Source: a virus. From it: a DNA stretch of 37,004 nucleotides. The notes beneath the pieces were generated by a model, which ran no database searches, had not been told where the DNA came from, and saw nothing but the letters and a program-made list of their open reading frames with translations. Numbering within the stretch: position 1 is the stretch's first letter; every line of letters begins with the position of its first letter. Shown one piece after another: positions 3,529 through 36,967 of the stretch. The position numbers were made by a program, and so were the translations under genes. Location of the stretch: IMG/VR virus record IMGVR_UViG_3300047300_000238, positions 1 to 37,004 of that record; one strand, given 5' to 3'.

Positions 3529-3741
3529 GTGTCACACATTTTTAAGATTGTGATAGCATCGTTGGCAACTTACAAGCCAAATCAAGAACCGCCCCCGAAA
3601 AGAGGGCGACCGCCTAAAACAATATATGACATCGACCGAACTAAAGTTGATGAGGTAATTCACGATGACAAAAAACCTGCTGATGGTTTGCGAGGCCAAA
3701 CTAGTTTTGGAAAAGCAAGGCGAAAAAACAGGCAAAATTGA
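3529..3741 (+). CDS. Small basic protein with AT-hook-like motif, unknown function
   Basis: A 70-residue reading frame starting at GTG just after the portal stop and overlapping the 5' end of the protease gene by 77 bases in another frame. Residues about 21-30 read PPPKRGRPPK, an AT-hook-like RGRP core. The rest is Lys/Arg-rich, ending RRKNRQN. There is no convincing Shine-Dalgarno before the GTG. The gap between portal and protease would otherwise be 143 bases, unusually long for this genome, which favours a real gene. The long overlap argues for caution. Function is unknown; minor-groove DNA binding is only a guess from the motif. Confidence 0.45.
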   Translation: MSHIFKIVIASLATYKPNQEPPPKRGRPPKTIYDIDRTKVDEVIHDDKKPADGLRGQTSFGKARRKNRQN

Positions 3742-29064: not shown

Positions 29065-29328
29065 TTATTTAGTTTTAAGAACGCGTGAAATGCGTTTGCC
29101 CGCTTCAACATAAGCCCAATTGGTCGCGTGTTCTTGGCTAGTAAAACATTTAGAACGCTGACGAACGCCAAATTCTTTCCATTCGCCGTTAACCTTGCGC
29201 GTGTTTTGAACCCATGCGTAAAAATTTACCGTGTCATCACGCAAACCAACAACAAAACCAATTTCACGGTCGCTATTGTCAAATTTGTTAGTGGTGAGGA
29301 ATGTTTCTAAAGTTTCGCCTAATGTCAT
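29065..29328 (-). CDS. First leftward-operon gene, unknown
   Basis: Eighty-seven residues from ATG 29328 (MTLGETLETFLTTNKFDNSD). AGGAG sits 8 bases upstream, which decides this start over longer in-frame options at 29373. It has a compact alpha/beta pattern with NFYAWVQNTRKVNGEWKEFG and a basic end, GKRISRVLKTK. It is the first gene after the leftward promoter, where lambda-like phages place early host-takeover or antitermination genes. I do not recognise the family. Confidence 0.72.
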   Translation of the reverse strand: MTLGETLETFLTTNKFDNSDREIGFVVGLRDDTVNFYAWVQNTRKVNGEWKEFGVRQRSKCFTSQEHATNWAYVEAGKRISRVLKTK

Positions 29329-29373
29329 TTCAGTTTCTCCTAGTAGTCCCCAAGAAGTTCGGGGCATGGACAA

Positions 29374-29404
29374 AGTATAAGCGATTTTTAAATGTGTTCG
29401 TCAA
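29374..29404 (-). promoter_or_regulatory. Candidate leftward early promoter
   Basis: On the minus strand, TTGACG (29399-29404) is followed after 19 bases by TATACT (29374-29379). Hexamers match sigma-70 consensus in 5 of 6 positions each; the spacer is slightly long. It lies about 46 bases before the first leftward gene and its -35 box overlaps the inverted repeat at 29394-29407. Confidence 0.62.
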
Positions 29405-29407
29405 CAC
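29394..29407. promoter_or_regulatory. Candidate operator: GTGTT-cgtc-AACAC inverted repeat
   Basis: A 5-bp perfect dyad with a 4-base centre overlapping the leftward promoter -35 box. A second palindrome, TTTTGCAAAA, at 29441-29450 lies in the rightward promoter. They are plausible binding sites for the adjacent Cro-like protein. Confidence 0.45.
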
Positions 29408-29431
29408 TTTGTTTAAATTATTTTCAACGGA

Positions 29432-29462
29432 TTGTTTGTTTTTTGCAAAATGTTGTTATGAT
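29432..29462 (+). promoter_or_regulatory. Candidate rightward early promoter, leaderless message
   Basis: TATGAT (29457-29462) forms a good -10 box; TTGTTT at 29432-29437 (19-base spacer) or 29436-29441 (15-base spacer) may serve as -35. A start about seven bases downstream would fall on the A of ATG 29469, so the Cro-like gene would be translated without a leader. No Shine-Dalgarno is present. Confidence 0.6.
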
Positions 29463-29468
29463 GCAACT

Positions 29469-29654
29469 ATGACAAAACAAGACCAAATCCAAGCCGACAA
29501 GGAATTGATAGCCCTATTGGGCGGCACTACAGCGGTAGCCAAGCGCATCGGCATCAATTCACCCCAACGGGTTCATAATTGGTTGACAAGGGGAATACCC
29601 GCATCAGTTAAATTGGCGCACCCTAAACTTTTTTTAAAAGGTTTAAAGAAATGA
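29469..29654 (+). CDS. Cro/YdaS-like helix-turn-helix regulator
   Basis: A 61-residue DNA-binding protein. LIALLGGTTAVAKRIGINSPQRVHNWLTRGIPAS (about 14-47) forms a helix-turn-helix in which AVAKRIGI is the first helix and PQRVHNWLTRG the recognition helix and turn, as in Cro and YdaS relatives. It is the first rightward gene at the divergent early promoters. It most likely represses those promoters. The longer frame upstream, starting at 29301, runs through the promoter region and is unlikely to be used. No opposing CI-like gene is seen. Confidence 0.82.
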   Translation: MTKQDQIQADKELIALLGGTTAVAKRIGINSPQRVHNWLTRGIPASVKLAHPKLFLKGLKK

Positions 29655-29950
29655 ACTGCAACTTTTGCAATGATGAAATTGTGGGTAGGCATCATTTGGC
29701 TAAAACTTGTTTGCCGTGCGCTACTGGCAAAAACAAAATAGGAATGTTGGAAGCAATTGCCGCGGTTAACAAAGCGGTTAAAACTGGCGCTTTGGCATCA
29801 GTAAAAACCCTTATGTGCGTTGATTGCGGTAGCCCTGCACAATGCTATGAACATCGTGATTACAACAAACCGTTGGAAGTTGAACCCGTGTGCCGTAAAT
29901 GCAATTTCCGCAGGGGTTCTGCAAAACCTTTAACATTAGAAAGCGCGTGA
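29651..29950 (+). CDS. Zinc-finger / HNH-like small phage protein
   Basis: A 99-residue protein with two metal-binding knuckles. N-terminal: C3-x2-C6 and C20-x2-C23 with HH at 14-15. C-terminal: C56VDCG (C59), then YEHRDY (His68), and EPVCRKCN (C81, C84). The second half resembles an HNH fold stripped to its essentials, a pattern common in phage early regions. It may bind DNA or act as a nuclease, but a complete HNH catalytic set is not obvious. It overlaps both neighbours by four bases or one. Confidence 0.65.
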   Translation: MNCNFCNDEIVGRHHLAKTCLPCATGKNKIGMLEAIAAVNKAVKTGALASVKTLMCVDCGSPAQCYEHRDYNKPLEVEPVCRKCNFRRGSAKPLTLESA

Positions 29951-30147
29951 TGAAAAAAATAACAAATTACTTGCAGTACAAATCTTTTATGATGCAACAC
30001 ATGGCGTTTGCTACTGAAAACCAATCGCTGAAAGATTCGCTATACCACTTGGTTTTTTATCATTGGTACAAAGATGCGGCGCAACATGAGTATTGGACAA
30101 TGACACATGAGCAACGCAAAGATTTGCACACGCTAATGATTCTTTGA
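29950..30147 (+). CDS. Small early protein, unknown
   Basis: Sixty-five residues from ATG 29950, which overlaps the previous stop by one base. The sequence is rich in aromatic and His residues (LYHLVFYHWYKDAAQHEYW) and is probably helical. A longer frame from the TTG at 29899 is unnecessary. I do not recognise the family. Confidence 0.65.
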   Translation: MKKITNYLQYKSFMMQHMAFATENQSLKDSLYHLVFYHWYKDAAQHEYWTMTHEQRKDLHTLMIL

Positions 30148-30153
30148 TACAAT
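30124..30153 (+). promoter_or_regulatory. Candidate promoter before replication genes
   Basis: TTGCAC (30124-30129), an 18-base spacer, then TACAAT (30148-30153). It would start transcription about 30160, ahead of the hairpin and the DUF1376 gene. The -35 box is imperfect. Confidence 0.4.
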
Positions 30154-30169
30154 TTTTGAAACACGGCTA

Positions 30170-30191
30170 GGTTGGGAGTTGCTACCCAACC
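30170..30191 (+). other. 7-bp hairpin in the leader of the replication genes
   Basis: GGTTGGG (30170-30176) and CCCAACC (30185-30191) pair perfectly around an 8-base loop. No T-run follows. It sits in the 104-base gap before the replication gene, so it might be an RNA structural element, an antitermination site or a leftover of a gene-boundary module. Confidence 0.5.
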
Positions 30192-30251
30192 GAAAAGCGT
30201 ACTCCCCGCCTGCCGCTTGTTTCTTTTTGGGAGTTTTGCGGAGATGCAGAA

Positions 30252-30980
30252 ATGCACTACTATCAATTCAATATTTCCGACTATCGGTCGGCTACGGTTC
30301 ATCTATCAAACGATGAAGATTTGGCGTATCGGCGATTGCTTGATATGTACTACGATTCTGAAAACAAAATACCGTTGGATACCCAATGGGTTGCAAGACG
30401 GTTACGGTTGGATACCAAAACGGTTGAAACTGTACTGAATGATATGTTTGTTAGGCATGAAGATGGATGGTTCAATGCCCGATGCCAAGATGTTATTCAG
30501 CAATATCATGCGATGGCAGAAAAAAATAGGGCCAATGGGCGGCTAGGTGGTAGGAAAAAGAACCCAACCGCTAACCCAATCGGTAACGATTCGCAACCCA
30601 TCGTTAAGGCAACTATAAACCAAGAACTAGAAACTACTAACCAAGAACTAAATTCCGTATCTAAAGATACGGGCGTTAAAACGCCGCTAACGCCTGATGA
30701 AATTATTTTTGGTTATGGTGTTCCATTGTTGACCAATGCGGGTTCAACAGATAAAAGCGCCCGTTCATTTCTTGGTAGCCTAAGAAAAGCGCACGGCGAT
30801 GAATTAGTTGTGAACACTTTGCGCGAGTGCATCAGGGCTAAACCAATTCAACCTTTGGAATGGTTAGCCAAGGCATTACCGCCTGATGGCATAAAACCTA
30901 AACTAAACAAACAGGAATCATTGGAAGCATCAAACAGGGCCGTTGTAGAACGATTGTTGAAGAAAGAAGGTTTGGTATGA
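30252..30980 (+). CDS. DUF1376 / YdaU-like replication initiator
   Basis: A 242-residue protein. The N-terminal YYQFNISDYRSATVHLSNDEDLAYRRLLDMYYDSE (3-37) is the signature of the DUF1376 (YdaU) family found at the head of phage replication modules. A winged-helix follows (to about 75) with WVARRLRLDTKTVETVL. A Gln/Asn-rich linker lies near 90-135, and a C-terminal helical domain (about 140-242) resembles the DnaC/DnaD type interaction regions. CGGAG lies 9 bases before the ATG. It probably binds the origin and recruits the helicase loader encoded next. Confidence 0.8.
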   Translation: MHYYQFNISDYRSATVHLSNDEDLAYRRLLDMYYDSENKIPLDTQWVARRLRLDTKTVETVLNDMFVRHEDGWFNARCQDVIQQYHAMAEKNRANGRLGGRKKNPTANPIGNDSQPIVKATINQELETTNQELNSVSKDTGVKTPLTPDEIIFGYGVPLLTNAGSTDKSARSFLGSLRKAHGDELVVNTLRECIRAKPIQPLEWLAKALPPDGIKPKLNKQESLEASNRAVVERLLKKEGLV

Positions 30981-31573
30981 ACCACAATCAAAAATCAGAT
31001 TTTTACCAACTTGTTGGCGATGCCCTTGGTTACTGGAAACAAGATGTAAGCGAATTTACATTGAATGTTTGGTGGAACGGTTGCCAAGCCTATGAGTTTG
31101 AGCAAGTTGCACAGGCATTAAGCAATCATGCGACCGACCCCGACAAAGGCCATTTTGCGCCAAAGGTAGCCGACATTGTGCGTATTTTGGGCGGCACTAA
31201 AACCGACCGTTCTTTGCGTGAATGGGGGCGGGTGCATGAGGCTATGAGTTCTATCGGCGCTTACAGCGATGTTGATTTTGGCGATAGCGCTACCCATGCA
31301 ACTATTCGCGACATGGGCGGTTGGCCTAAACTTTGCCGTACAGAATTAAAAGATTTAAGTTATTTGCAACATCGCTTTTGTGAACTTTACAAAGCTAACG
31401 ATGGGCAAGTTGTTGATGTACCCGCGTTGATGGGCGATAGGTCGCCTGATGAAGTTTTTAAAAAGAAAGGATTGCAACCGCCTAAACCAAAGTTAATTGC
31501 GGGCGGCAATCCAAGTAAATTAAAACCGTTAAAACTGCATACCCAAATTACGCAAGCATTGGGGTACAAATGA
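30977..31573 (+). CDS. Replication protein, helicase-loader-like (DUF6475 pattern)
   Basis: A 198-residue protein overlapping the initiator by four bases. The N-terminal helical region FYQLVGDALGYWKQDVSEFTLNVWWNGCQAYEFEQVAQALSNHATDPDKGHFAP is a pattern I associate with phage replication P-like proteins. It has no Walker motifs, so it may act as adaptor rather than ATPase. The C-terminus is Lys/Pro-rich and probably flexible. As second gene of the replication pair it corresponds in position to lambda gene P. Confidence 0.66.
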   Translation: MNHNQKSDFYQLVGDALGYWKQDVSEFTLNVWWNGCQAYEFEQVAQALSNHATDPDKGHFAPKVADIVRILGGTKTDRSLREWGRVHEAMSSIGAYSDVDFGDSATHATIRDMGGWPKLCRTELKDLSYLQHRFCELYKANDGQVVDVPALMGDRSPDEVFKKKGLQPPKPKLIAGGNPSKLKPLKLHTQITQALGYK

Positions 31574-32235
31574 CATTGAAAGTTCTGCCCATCAACACTT
31601 TTGAAACCGAACCTTGGTTAATTGAAAAACACTATGCCAAGCGTATGCCATCAATTTCTTATGCGTTTGGCGCTTACATCAATGATGTATTGGTTGGCGT
31701 GGTCACATACGGCACATCAGCAAGTTCTACCCTACGCCAAGGCGTGTGCGGCAAGAAATGGGAAGAAAATGTAATTGAACTCAACCGCCTTGTTGTTGAC
31801 AATGATAAAAACAACATTGCTTCAGAACTGGTTGGTAAATCAATTCAAATGTTGCCCAAGCCCTGCATTGTGGTTTCTTACGCTGATACCGAACAAGGCC
31901 ATGTGGGTTATGTTTACCAAGCAACAAATTTTATTTACACGGGTTTAAGTTCAAAGTTTAAAGACCCAAAAGTAAAAGGCTTGGAACATTTGCATCACAC
32001 AACTTTTGCGCATGGAATGACTAACGCCGAAGTGATTGAAAAATACGGCGAAGAAAATGTTTACTTTGTCGAACGGGCGCGTAAACATCGCTATGTGTTT
32101 TTTGCGGGCAGTAAAACCCACAAGCAACAAATGCGGCGTGAACTAACCTATCCCGTGTTGCCATACCCCAAAGGCGAATCAAAACGCTACGATGCGGGCG
32201 GCAAAGTTAAAACCCAACAACTTTTATTTGTATGA
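31570..32235 (+). CDS. Mom-like adenine modification protein
   Basis: A 221-residue protein with a GNAT-like core. Recognisable segments: HYAKRMPSISYAFGAYINDVLVGVVTYGT (21-49), VIELNRLVV (67-75), PKPCIVVSYADTEQGHVGYVYQATNFIYTGLS (near 97-128). These match the Mom family, which in Mu converts adenine to N6-carbamoylmethyl-adenine and protects phage DNA from restriction. It lies in the early operon directly after the replication genes, so DNA could be modified as it is made. Mu's translational activator Com is not adjacent; see the zinc-ribbon gene at 34473. Activity is inferred from family. Confidence 0.78.
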   Translation: MTLKVLPINTFETEPWLIEKHYAKRMPSISYAFGAYINDVLVGVVTYGTSASSTLRQGVCGKKWEENVIELNRLVVDNDKNNIASELVGKSIQMLPKPCIVVSYADTEQGHVGYVYQATNFIYTGLSSKFKDPKVKGLEHLHHTTFAHGMTNAEVIEKYGEENVYFVERARKHRYVFFAGSKTHKQQMRRELTYPVLPYPKGESKRYDAGGKVKTQQLLFV

Positions 32236-32354
32236 ACAAAGAAATTGCAATGCGCATTTTGGATAAGGTCAAAGAAGGGGTTTCATATCCTGATTGGCTA
32301 ATTACGCGTGCATTGAAATTTACAGGCGATATTGATGGACATGGAACACTTTAA
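32232..32354 (+). CDS. 40-residue conserved-type small phage protein
   Basis: Starts at ATG 32232 overlapping the Mom-like stop and ends within the next gene. The sequence MNKEIAMRILDKVKEGVSYP continues DWLITRALKFTGDIDG, and its layout (hydrophobic helix, P-x-W-L-I, TGD-D ending) resembles tiny proteins I have seen in other phages' replication regions. Function unknown. Confidence 0.62.
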   Translation: MNKEIAMRILDKVKEGVSYPDWLITRALKFTGDIDGHGTL

Positions 32355-32547
32355 AGATTGCGAAGCGCGGGAATGGATAGCCCGTTACCGCAAAAAGCAA
32401 TTGGAAGAAGGCAAAGGCGAAGCAATCGAATGGTGGAACAAAACCATTAAAGACATTGCCGCCAAGCGTGGTCAAGATGCCGCAGAAGAATTGAAAAGAA
32501 GAATGAACGAACAAAGGGGAACAAATGCGATTCGCCGCAAGGGTTGA
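32335..32547 (+). CDS. Small charged helical protein, unknown
   Basis: Seventy residues from ATG 32335 (an ATG at 32341 is the alternative). It opens MDMEHFKDCEAREWIARYRK and continues as one long charged helix with KDIAAKRGQDAAEELKRRM. The pattern E-H-F-K-D-x-E-A-R-x-W-x-x-R-Y is one I associate with small phage proteins of unknown role. It overlaps the VRR-NUC gene by 23 bases. Confidence 0.65.
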   Translation: MDMEHFKDCEAREWIARYRKKQLEEGKGEAIEWWNKTIKDIAAKRGQDAAEELKRRMNEQRGTNAIRRKG

Positions 32548-32788
32548 TGCAAACCAAACACAAATCGTATCTGCCTTACGCGCCGCGGGTGCGTATGTTT
32601 GGATTATTGGCCTACCCGTTGACCTTTTGGTTGGCTACCGTGGTCACACTTTCTTGGTAGAGATTAAATCGGGGTCTAAAAGGCGTTTTACGGCCCTACA
32701 AGCCGATTTTTTTGAGAATTGGTCGGGAAGTACCTTGGCACGGGTTGATAGCCCTGAATCCGCACTACGAATGATTGGGGTAATTTAA
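32525..32788 (+). CDS. VRR-NUC nuclease, minimal
   Basis: An 87-residue nuclease of the VRR-NUC branch of PD-(D/E)XK enzymes. Visible residues are VDANQTQIVSALRAAG (7-22), IIGLPVDLLVGYRG (27-40) with Asp33, and FLVEIKSG with Glu46 and Lys48 as catalytic pair. A helix with TALQADFFENW follows. Phage single-domain versions act as structure-specific nucleases and may resolve Holliday junctions made by recombination. It belongs to the rightward early operon. Confidence 0.85.
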   Translation: MRFAARVDANQTQIVSALRAAGAYVWIIGLPVDLLVGYRGHTFLVEIKSGSKRRFTALQADFFENWSGSTLARVDSPESALRMIGVI

Positions 32789-33120
32789 TGAACGCGCCTT
32801 ACAAAACAGTAGATTTCATTTTAGAAAACGCGCCAAGGTACGCTAAAGCCAAAAGCGAACGCATCTACCTTGAAGAATTCCGTAAGACCAAAAAAGCATT
32901 GCTGATGAAGGTAGCGATGGAAATGGGCTACGAAAGCGCGGCGGCACAAGAACGCGAAGCCTACGCACACCCCGAATATCAAGAATTGCTAAAAGGTTTG
33001 GCGTTAGCCATTGAAGAAGAAGAAACGCTGAAGTGGAAATTAACCGCGGCGACAATTAAGGGGGAAATATGGCGCACCGAATCGGCTAACGAACGAAGTG
33101 GCATAAAAGCAACGGAATAA
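32788..33120 (+). CDS. Conserved-type phage protein, helical, unknown
   Basis: A 110-residue Glu/Lys/Ala-rich helical protein: ENAPRYAKAKSERIYLEEFRKTKKALLMK, then AAAQEREAYAHPEYQELLKGLALAIEEEE. I know this pattern from phage early genes but not its function. It shares one base with the previous stop. It is probably a coiled-coil protein, possibly a partner of the adjacent VRR-NUC protein. Confidence 0.72.
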   Translation: MNAPYKTVDFILENAPRYAKAKSERIYLEEFRKTKKALLMKVAMEMGYESAAAQEREAYAHPEYQELLKGLALAIEEEETLKWKLTAATIKGEIWRTESANERSGIKATE

Positions 33121-33128
33121 ACAATTTG

Positions 33129-33158
33129 TTGAAAAATGCGTATTAGTGAACTTATAAT
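33129..33158 (+). promoter_or_regulatory. Strong candidate promoter for the late-early small-gene block
   Basis: TTGAAA (33129-33134), 18-base spacer, perfect TATAAT (33153-33158). It sits in the only gap of this gene block, with a small CCGT-tacatc-ACGG dyad (33168-33181) at the expected start. It should drive the run of small genes from 33200. Confidence 0.72.
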
Positions 33159-33199
33159 TTGTGTACGCCGTTACATCACGGTCTTAAAGAAAGTAGCAA

Positions 33200-33292
33200 A
33201 TGTGGCCTTTTCCCCCATTCCCTAACCCCAAAGACAAGGGGACTAAGCGCCCTAAGTTCAACCCCGAAAACTTTGAGGATGCGCCGCTATGA
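33200..33292 (+). CDS. 30-residue Pro-rich candidate microprotein
   Basis: ATG 33200, overlapping the next start by four bases. Sequence MWPFPPFPNPKDKGTKRPKF followed by NPENFEDAPL. The AAAGAAAG before it is only a weak ribosome site. It is Pro-rich and unstructured. It is plausible because of the ATGA overlap and its position behind a strong promoter. Confidence 0.5.
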   Translation: MWPFPPFPNPKDKGTKRPKFNPENFEDAPL

Positions 33293-35830: not shown

Positions 35831-36261
35831 TGCCATCAGTACCAACTAACAGTAAGTGTTCATCGTTAGGATGTAAGAACCCTAGAAGTAAGCTGAACAC
35901 CTACTGCTTAGAACATGGGGGCATGGACAACATGGCAAGGCGTGAAACCGATAGCGCCTATCAAACACCGTTATGGAAAACAATTAGGGCGGCACAGATA
36001 AGCAAGCAACCCCTATGTCAAGGTTGCCTAGCGCGTGGGATAGTCACCGCGGCTAAACACATCGACCATTTATTTGCATGGAAGCACATAGGCGGGCAAG
36101 CCTTTTCACACAACATATTCCAATCCCTTTGCCACAATTGCCATAGCCAAAAATCAGGGCTAGAAAAGCAGGGCATTTACAGGCACTACGCACAAGGCGG
36201 CGTAAAAGACTACAGTAAGCACGACTACGCGTATATGGTGACAAATGCAAATAGGAACTGA
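35830..36261 (+). CDS. HNH endonuclease
   Basis: A 143-residue protein with a classic HNH core: IDH (78-80), an Asn in HNIF (95) and a zinc knuckle, C63-x2-C66 with C101-x2-C104. A second Cys cluster lies near the N-terminus (C10, C15, C26). HNH genes commonly sit beside terminase small subunits, where the nuclease aids packaging or cos cleavage in many phages. If the window ends join, only the GIY-YIG gene separates this from terS. It could also be a homing endonuclease. Confidence 0.85.
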   Translation: MPSVPTNSKCSSLGCKNPRSKLNTYCLEHGGMDNMARRETDSAYQTPLWKTIRAAQISKQPLCQGCLARGIVTAAKHIDHLFAWKHIGGQAFSHNIFQSLCHNCHSQKSGLEKQGIYRHYAQGGVKDYSKHDYAYMVTNANRN

Positions 36262-36967
36262 ACATCAACCCAAGGGCGCAAGTGTTGTTTATTGGATACA
36301 CAAGCCCGAACACACCGACATTACCAAACAAGGTTATGTAGGCATTACGCACAAGATGGCTAGGGATAGGTGGATTGACCATAAGAGTTCATCACGCCGT
36401 AACCCTGATGCCAATTGCGCCGTGGTTAACCGTGCTATCCGTAAGCACCCCGACTTGATATATGAGGTAGTTCTAGTAGCAGATACCCGCGAATACTGCG
36501 AACGCATAGAAGGATTGCTAAGACCAACTAACCGCATAGGTTGGAACATTGCCCGCGGTGGTATGCCCGTTGATACCATGATGGGCGGGGTAGCCAATAG
36601 GGAACGATGGATTAAATATTGGATAGATAACCCTATTGAAGCGGCTAACCGTTGGTGGGAAACAGAACGCAGATTGCTAAAAAAGCAAACAATTAAACAT
36701 CGTAAAGCAAGCAAACCAAAGCCATTTACAGTAGAAAGAAAGTTTAGCGCACGCAATAAATCAGGATATACAGGCGTTACATGGTTTGATAAGTACGGCA
36801 AATGGCGGGCGCAAATAGGCATCAAGCCTGAAGTAGTAACCCTTGGCTACTTTGATACAAAAGAACAGGCTTATGCGACCTACTTGGAGGCCAAACACAT
36901 ACGCTTGCAATATAGGCATGGCATACTTGGTTTTGATGATGCAATTGCTTTAATTCGGGCGTTATAA
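36245..36967 (+). CDS. GIY-YIG homing endonuclease with AP2 DNA-binding domain
   Basis: A 240-residue endonuclease. The N-terminal catalytic domain has YWI (16-18) and GYVGIT (30-35), the GIY-YIG equivalents, then R42 in DRWIDHK and Glu89 in CERIEG, the usual metal ligand. WNIARGG follows (100-106). A linker and basic region lead to an AP2/ERF-type domain at about 172-220 (SGYTGVTWFDKYGKWRAQIG, LGYFDTKEQAYATYLEA), frequent in homing nucleases. It overlaps the HNH gene by 17 bases. It is probably a mobile intruder beside the terminase. Confidence 0.88.
   Translation: MQIGTEHQPKGASVVYWIHKPEHTDITKQGYVGITHKMARDRWIDHKSSSRRNPDANCAVVNRAIRKHPDLIYEVVLVADTREYCERIEGLLRPTNRIGWNIARGGMPVDTMMGGVANRERWIKYWIDNPIEAANRWWETERRLLKKQTIKHRKASKPKPFTVERKFSARNKSGYTGVTWFDKYGKWRAQIGIKPEVVTLGYFDTKEQAYATYLEAKHIRLQYRHGILGFDDAIALIRAL

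Follow-up and report, generated by a model that had tools for sequence, protein, structure and literature searches.

A gene of the Mom family in a freshwater phage currently fills a one-gene slot where the phage clade appears to swap DNA-modification genes. Its product is probably an enzyme of the Mom type that hypermodifies adenine in DNA and is synthesized along with the replication proteins. What is new here is the exchangeable slot; the contrast between predicted early expression in this phage and late expression in Mu is not unusual.

The gene lies in a 37-kb virus record (37,004 nucleotides; hereafter, the window). Related contigs L009, L013, and L017 join the window's end (about position 36240) to its start, which shows the window to be a nearly complete genome in circular permutation. 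The homing-endonuclease-like gene at this joint (Table 1) is missing from L009 and L013, where the sequence passes from 36240 to base 1–3 of the window. The layout comprises terminase, portal, capsid, tail, and lysis genes; minus-strand genes for a YqaJ exonuclease and for Erf; and then a rightward early arm. Methylophilaceae phage P19250A is the closest isolated phage (TerL 61%, capsid 63%, same gene order), and its capsid is the only relative of the window's capsid among 50,697 records. An HMM search found no Mom in P19250A. Its GC content is 35% compared with 45% in the window, so the two hosts need not be the same, and it shows only mild depletion of GAG. Of two scans of genome contigs for the host, the first returned nothing, and all matches of the second were remote homologues from unrelated genomes, many of which were metagenome bins.

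Table 1. Features of the mom region and the genome joint, in window coordinates
Feature	Position	Strand	Remarks
Putative transcription unit: HTH/Cro-like regulator, replication genes, mom, nuclease, 110-aa gene	29301..33120	+	Predicted
DUF1376 replication/primosomal-type protein, 242 aa	30252..30980	+	Upstream replication gene; primosomal PHROGs, E down to 1e-27
198-aa gene	30977..31573	+	Left border of slot; PHROG 10105; DUF6475; weak helicase-loader match
mom, Mom-family GNAT-fold DNA modification enzyme, 221 aa	31570..32235	+	ATG start; profile, structure, residues
40-aa conserved ORF (anchor)	32232..32354	+	Right border of slot; ATGA start overlaps mom stop
71-aa DUF7696-like gene	32332..32547	+	Downstream slot border; found in almost every syntenic member inspected
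Small nuclease	32525..32788	+	PHROG 93 endonuclease match; VRR-NUC-like PD-(D/E)XK motif by eye
Sigma-70-like promoter, TTGAAA-18-TATAAT	33129..33158	+	11/12; in gap behind mom unit; partly conserved in relatives
HNH/AP2 homing-endonuclease-like gene	36245-36967		At genome joint

Identity of the mom Gene

The preliminary description had named a Mom-like gene at this locus from the motifs ELNRLVV and CIVVSYADTEQGHVGYVYQATNFIYTGLS. Both motifs are present in ORF 31570–32235, and profile, structure, and residue comparisons bear the assignment out. The sole Pfam-A match of the ORF was Mom (PF25680, E 1.1e-36), a full-length match over residues 4–201 of 221 with a score of 126.9 bits (cut-off, 27.1), and PHROG 1384 (“Mom-like DNA modification protein”) matched with E 1.1e-53; PADLOC and NCBIfam gave no match. 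A sequence search of the PDB returned Mu Mom (8bv8) as the best match (E 1.5e-9). The same structure, deposited as “inactive mutant S124A,” was the best fold match of an AlphaFold model of the protein (pLDDT 91; E 5e-11, TM 0.62–0.67), about 5 orders of magnitude ahead of the next, with general GNAT acetyltransferases as secondary matches; the rmsd of the model to 8bv8 was high (5.7–6.2), so the agreement is at the level of the fold.

Window residues His-21, Tyr-22, Glu-70, Leu-71, Arg-73, Ser-85, Asp-106, and Tyr-116 correspond to His-58, Tyr-59, Glu-108, Leu-109, Arg-111, Ser-124, Asp-149, and Tyr-159 of Mu Mom. When 22 divergent Mom proteins, that of Mu among them, were aligned, window positions H21, Y22, G43, E70, L71, R73, G113, Y116, A118, N120, G125, and Y175 were invariant. 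Among 160 closer sequences, the position of Mu S124 was Ser in 159, and that of Mu D149 was Asp in 154 and Glu in the others. Besides Ser-124, the active-site residues Asp-149, His-58–Tyr-59, Arg-111, and Tyr-159 of Mu Mom are presumed to have a catalytic role. The dN/dS of mom against its relatives was 0.05–0.18, indicating that the gene encodes a selected protein and is not a chance ORF.

The preliminary description had linked the protein to Mu Mom, and this held for the family. In a tree that has no non-Mom outgroup, and is therefore no proof of membership on its own, the protein fell within a large sub-clade of environmental and phage sequences that includes CRP-902, apart from the Mu group, which stood on a long branch of its own (length 2.49, support 100/100). 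ORF 31570–32235 is a complete Mom-family protein outside the Mu sub-clade, and for this reason N6-carbamoylmethyl-adenine as its product is a prediction carried over from Mu by homology. An enzyme of the same family and role that attaches a different acyl- or glycine-derived group, or prefers a base context other than Mu's, is a possibility that we regard as smaller but appreciable. It draws on the identity to Mu Mom of only ∼26%, on the separate Mu branch, and on four positions that are constant in the window's branch but different in Mu (H111/R154, Y123/F166, R169/K211, and K172/Q214), and GNAT enzymes in general vary widely in their chemistry (PMC8072286). Against it stand the near-invariant residues held in common with Mu, including Ser-124, whose mutation inactivates Mu Mom.

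Gene Neighborhood and Timing

Placement of mom right after the replication genes was confirmed, since the DUF1376 gene and the 198-aa gene directly precede it. A 4-bp ATGA overlap joins the start of mom to the stop of the 198-aa gene, and a second one joins its stop to the start of the 40-aa anchor ORF. The overlap with the anchor was found in 93 of 94 mom loci, and in 108 of 149 scored loci mom overlapped a co-directional gene upstream. Several of these overlapping neighbors (10 were scanned with Pfam and 7 with PHROG) were DUF1376, DnaB-type, or other replication-initiation proteins.

The plus strand shows no terminator-like site from 29301 through mom, and the promoter-like site behind the unit may be the start of the next one. 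This site belongs to a conserved intergenic stretch (33121–33200) that is a candidate regulatory or structured element; it is followed there by GCCGTTACATCACGGTCT, with a short inverted repeat, CCGT..ACGG.

The mom locus was also compared with the control region of Mu mom. No com gene overlapping the mom start was found, the overlapping gene upstream being the replication-type gene of 198 aa; no stable structure was predicted at the mom start where an inhibitory hairpin was sought (z +1.05); and the control region contains no Dam (GATC) site, the nearest of six GATC sites being more than 5 kb away. These absences rule out com/mom control of the Mu type and show that the layers of late control known from Mu are missing at this gene. 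Taken together with the ATGA joins and the promoter-like site after the unit, they make early, replication-coupled synthesis of Mom the natural reading of the operon layout, and we consider this prediction well supported. Read-through into the late genes could instead produce Mom mainly late or throughout infection, with modification largely post-replication as in Mu, given that the plus strand carries the genes from 29301 onward, over the genome joint and as far as the lysis genes; the coupling of mom to the replication genes and the promoter-like site behind it, which may open a new unit, make this unlikely.

An Exchangeable Slot for DNA-Modification Genes

Relatives of the window were fetched by Erf and by TerL, so that mom did not choose the loci. 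They have a common gene order, of which mom is not a constant part. For the census of the slot, we scored the gene just upstream of the anchor in 47 Erf-fetched syntenic loci with the 40-aa anchor ORF; the Erf set comprised the best 80 among 595 or more loci and includes some related contigs; the counts therefore do not represent independent events. The slot held Mom in 7 of the 47 loci and a C5-methyltransferase in another 7 (6 by clustering, plus L313 after its true frame was found). An N6/N4-methyltransferase, a TET-associated glycosyltransferase (TAGT), and a PAPS-reductase-like protein occupied two loci each, and single loci had a 61-aa ORF and a 337-aa protein. In 25 loci, a replication gene or other neighboring gene stood directly before the anchor. 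The slot is empty in L283 and L319, where a homologue of the 198-aa gene joins the anchor directly through the same ATGA overlap. Because more than half of the slots are without a modification gene, mom is dispensable.

Homologues of Mom, the methyltransferases, and TAGT were found nowhere else in the 591 kb of these loci, a partly circular result in that the queries came from the slot; three PAPS-reductase-like genes lay outside it. An independent motif search placed 9 of 11 methyltransferase-like ORFs inside the slot. The TAGT genes are at L294:3465–4322 (−) and L296:3251–4108 (−). The 337-aa protein (L320:4232–5242, −) has no Pfam match and is by its position a candidate new DNA-modification enzyme.

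Like Mom, the DNA methyltransferases (PF01555 and PF00145) and TAGT (PF20691) act in DNA base modification and sequence masking, but as enzymes and in their chemistry they are unrelated to it. The exchange of mom with other DNA-modification genes at the same place points to a DNA-modification role for the window's protein and is the best available evidence that it modifies phage DNA.

The small nuclease, ∼0.3 kb downstream of mom, raises the further reading of a phage-borne restriction-modification pair, in which Mom would mark phage DNA and the VRR-NUC-like nuclease would attack host or competing DNA. Such a function was proposed for jumbo-phage Mom domains fused to nucleases (PMC7824862), and in CRP-902 a VRR-nuclease overlaps mom, although it also adjoins a helicase. 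We rejected this pairing as very improbable because the nuclease stays where mom is absent: L283, L302, L319, and L358 retain it although their slot holds no modification gene, and it would there attack unmarked phage DNA. Least probable of all is a conventional GNAT acetyltransferase with proteins or small molecules as its substrates, misannotated as Mom: the overall fold is alike, GNAT structures appear among the secondary fold matches, and many phage homologues are annotated “acetyltransferase,” but a Pfam search up to E 1 returned Mom and no GNAT family, the lead of 8bv8 over the next fold match is large, and DNA-modification genes take the place of mom in the slot.

Avoidance of Restriction Sites

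The window contains 6 GATC sites where 60 were expected, and ACGT (2), AGCT (13), and CCGG (32) were likewise depleted. Across the window and its clade, ACGT, AGCT, GATC, CCGG, CCAGG, GGCGCC/GGTACC/GGCACC, CCATGG, GTGCAC, ATGCAT, and GCTAGC were depleted or absent, and several 6-mers such as CCATGG, GGCGCC, GGTACC, GGCACC, and GTGCAC were absent clade-wide. This purging of restriction-type sites indicates that the clade is probably under restriction pressure, and the number of depleted short sites suggests that the hosts possess many restriction systems. GATC depletion was not strong in some members (L210, L205, and L216), which may carry or meet a different methylation.

The trinucleotide GAG/CTC occurred 99 times in the window compared with 478 ± 19 expected from dinucleotide shuffles, and the depletion extended to both strands, all reading frames, and all flanking contexts. 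It was found in the window, L002–L017, L019, L201–L225, L283–L288, L302, L319, L321, and L358, and was strongest in the window's TerL clade (∼93% identity and up), independently of mom. Of 32 trinucleotides in the window, the five lowest included all four SAS trinucleotides, the presumed context of Mu Mom. Nevertheless, we ruled out that GAG depletion is a Mom footprint: clade members without mom showed full GAG depletion and the same site avoidance, and other mom-carrying phages, even L018 with a Mom 80% identical, showed none. We know of no type II enzyme with a 3-bp target such as GAG/CTC; a defense motif of a new type or a protospacer-adjacent-motif effect is possible.

Since avoidance is equal in members with and without mom, Mom has not lifted selection against these sites, and any protection must be partial, recent, or host-dependent. 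Mom may protect partially or against particular systems, or it may change hands too often to shape site content. An anti-restriction role, as put forward in the preliminary description, thus gains indirect support from the methyltransferases and the glycosyltransferase that replace mom in the slot, and is qualified by the strong site avoidance in members with and without mom.

Proposed Mechanism and Comparison with Known Systems

We propose that Mom would be produced alongside the phage replication proteins, presumably early, and would bind newly made phage DNA. It would add a carbamoylmethyl or closely related group to the N6 of adenine within a short sequence context, and the modified adenine would hinder cleavage by type I and type II restriction enzymes of the next host. 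For the clade as a whole, we think it likely that a widespread group of freshwater phages maintains a replication-coupled one-gene slot through which unrelated DNA-modification enzymes (Mom, C5- and N6/N4-methyltransferases, TAGT, and perhaps the PAPS-reductase-like enzyme) are swapped by ATGA-to-ATGA exchange. These phages would respond to heavy restriction pressure by changing the disguise of their DNA and by purging dozens of short sites, including GAG/CTC.

Closely related phages that differ by a single-gene cassette (Mom, methyltransferase, glycosyltransferase, or empty) constitute a natural experiment in which Mom stands in for other DNA-modification enzymes. To our knowledge, Mom function has been established essentially from Mu alone, and the slot allows direct tests of what Mom homologues do in phages other than Mu. 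Its content also offers a way to discover DNA-modification genes, for example the 337-aa gene of L320. Our literature search, in which most subscription papers were out of reach, found no report of such a modification slot and none of the product of a non-Mu Mom, this branch included.

In other phages, some observations concern the immediate neighbors of mom. Directly upstream of mom in L085, L087, L089, L093, L097, and L099, there are often ORFs of 74–80 aa or ParB-like genes, which may be partners of Mom. In Microbacterium phage Appa (L099), a tRNA-Gly(ccc) gene (3654–3728) lies directly after mom on the opposite strand; the Mu modification is glycinamide-like, which makes this single case worth noting.

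The window's protein has in common with Mu Mom the family, the GNAT-type fold, and the near-invariant residues including the equivalents of Ser-124 and Asp-149, and presumably also the modification of adenine at N6. The two genes differ in their setting. Mu mom is activated by the late factor C (PMC4461284). Its late promoter is at the genome end, whereas mom in the window lies inside a replication operon. The preliminary description had pointed to early timing as a departure from Mu, and the contrast with Mu is real, but the arrangement is not special to this phage. In eight other isolated phages of our sample (CRP-902, BarnCat, FSL SP-031, Alsa_1, Appa, vB_EauM-23, Jerm2, and RaK2), which belong to families other than the window's, mom is likewise in or beside replication modules, with DNA polymerase, primase, helicase, SSB, or DnaD genes as its neighbors. 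In some phages it is found elsewhere: beside the terminase in Riggi, between Q and holin in pAEv1818, and beside the integrase in PAN70.
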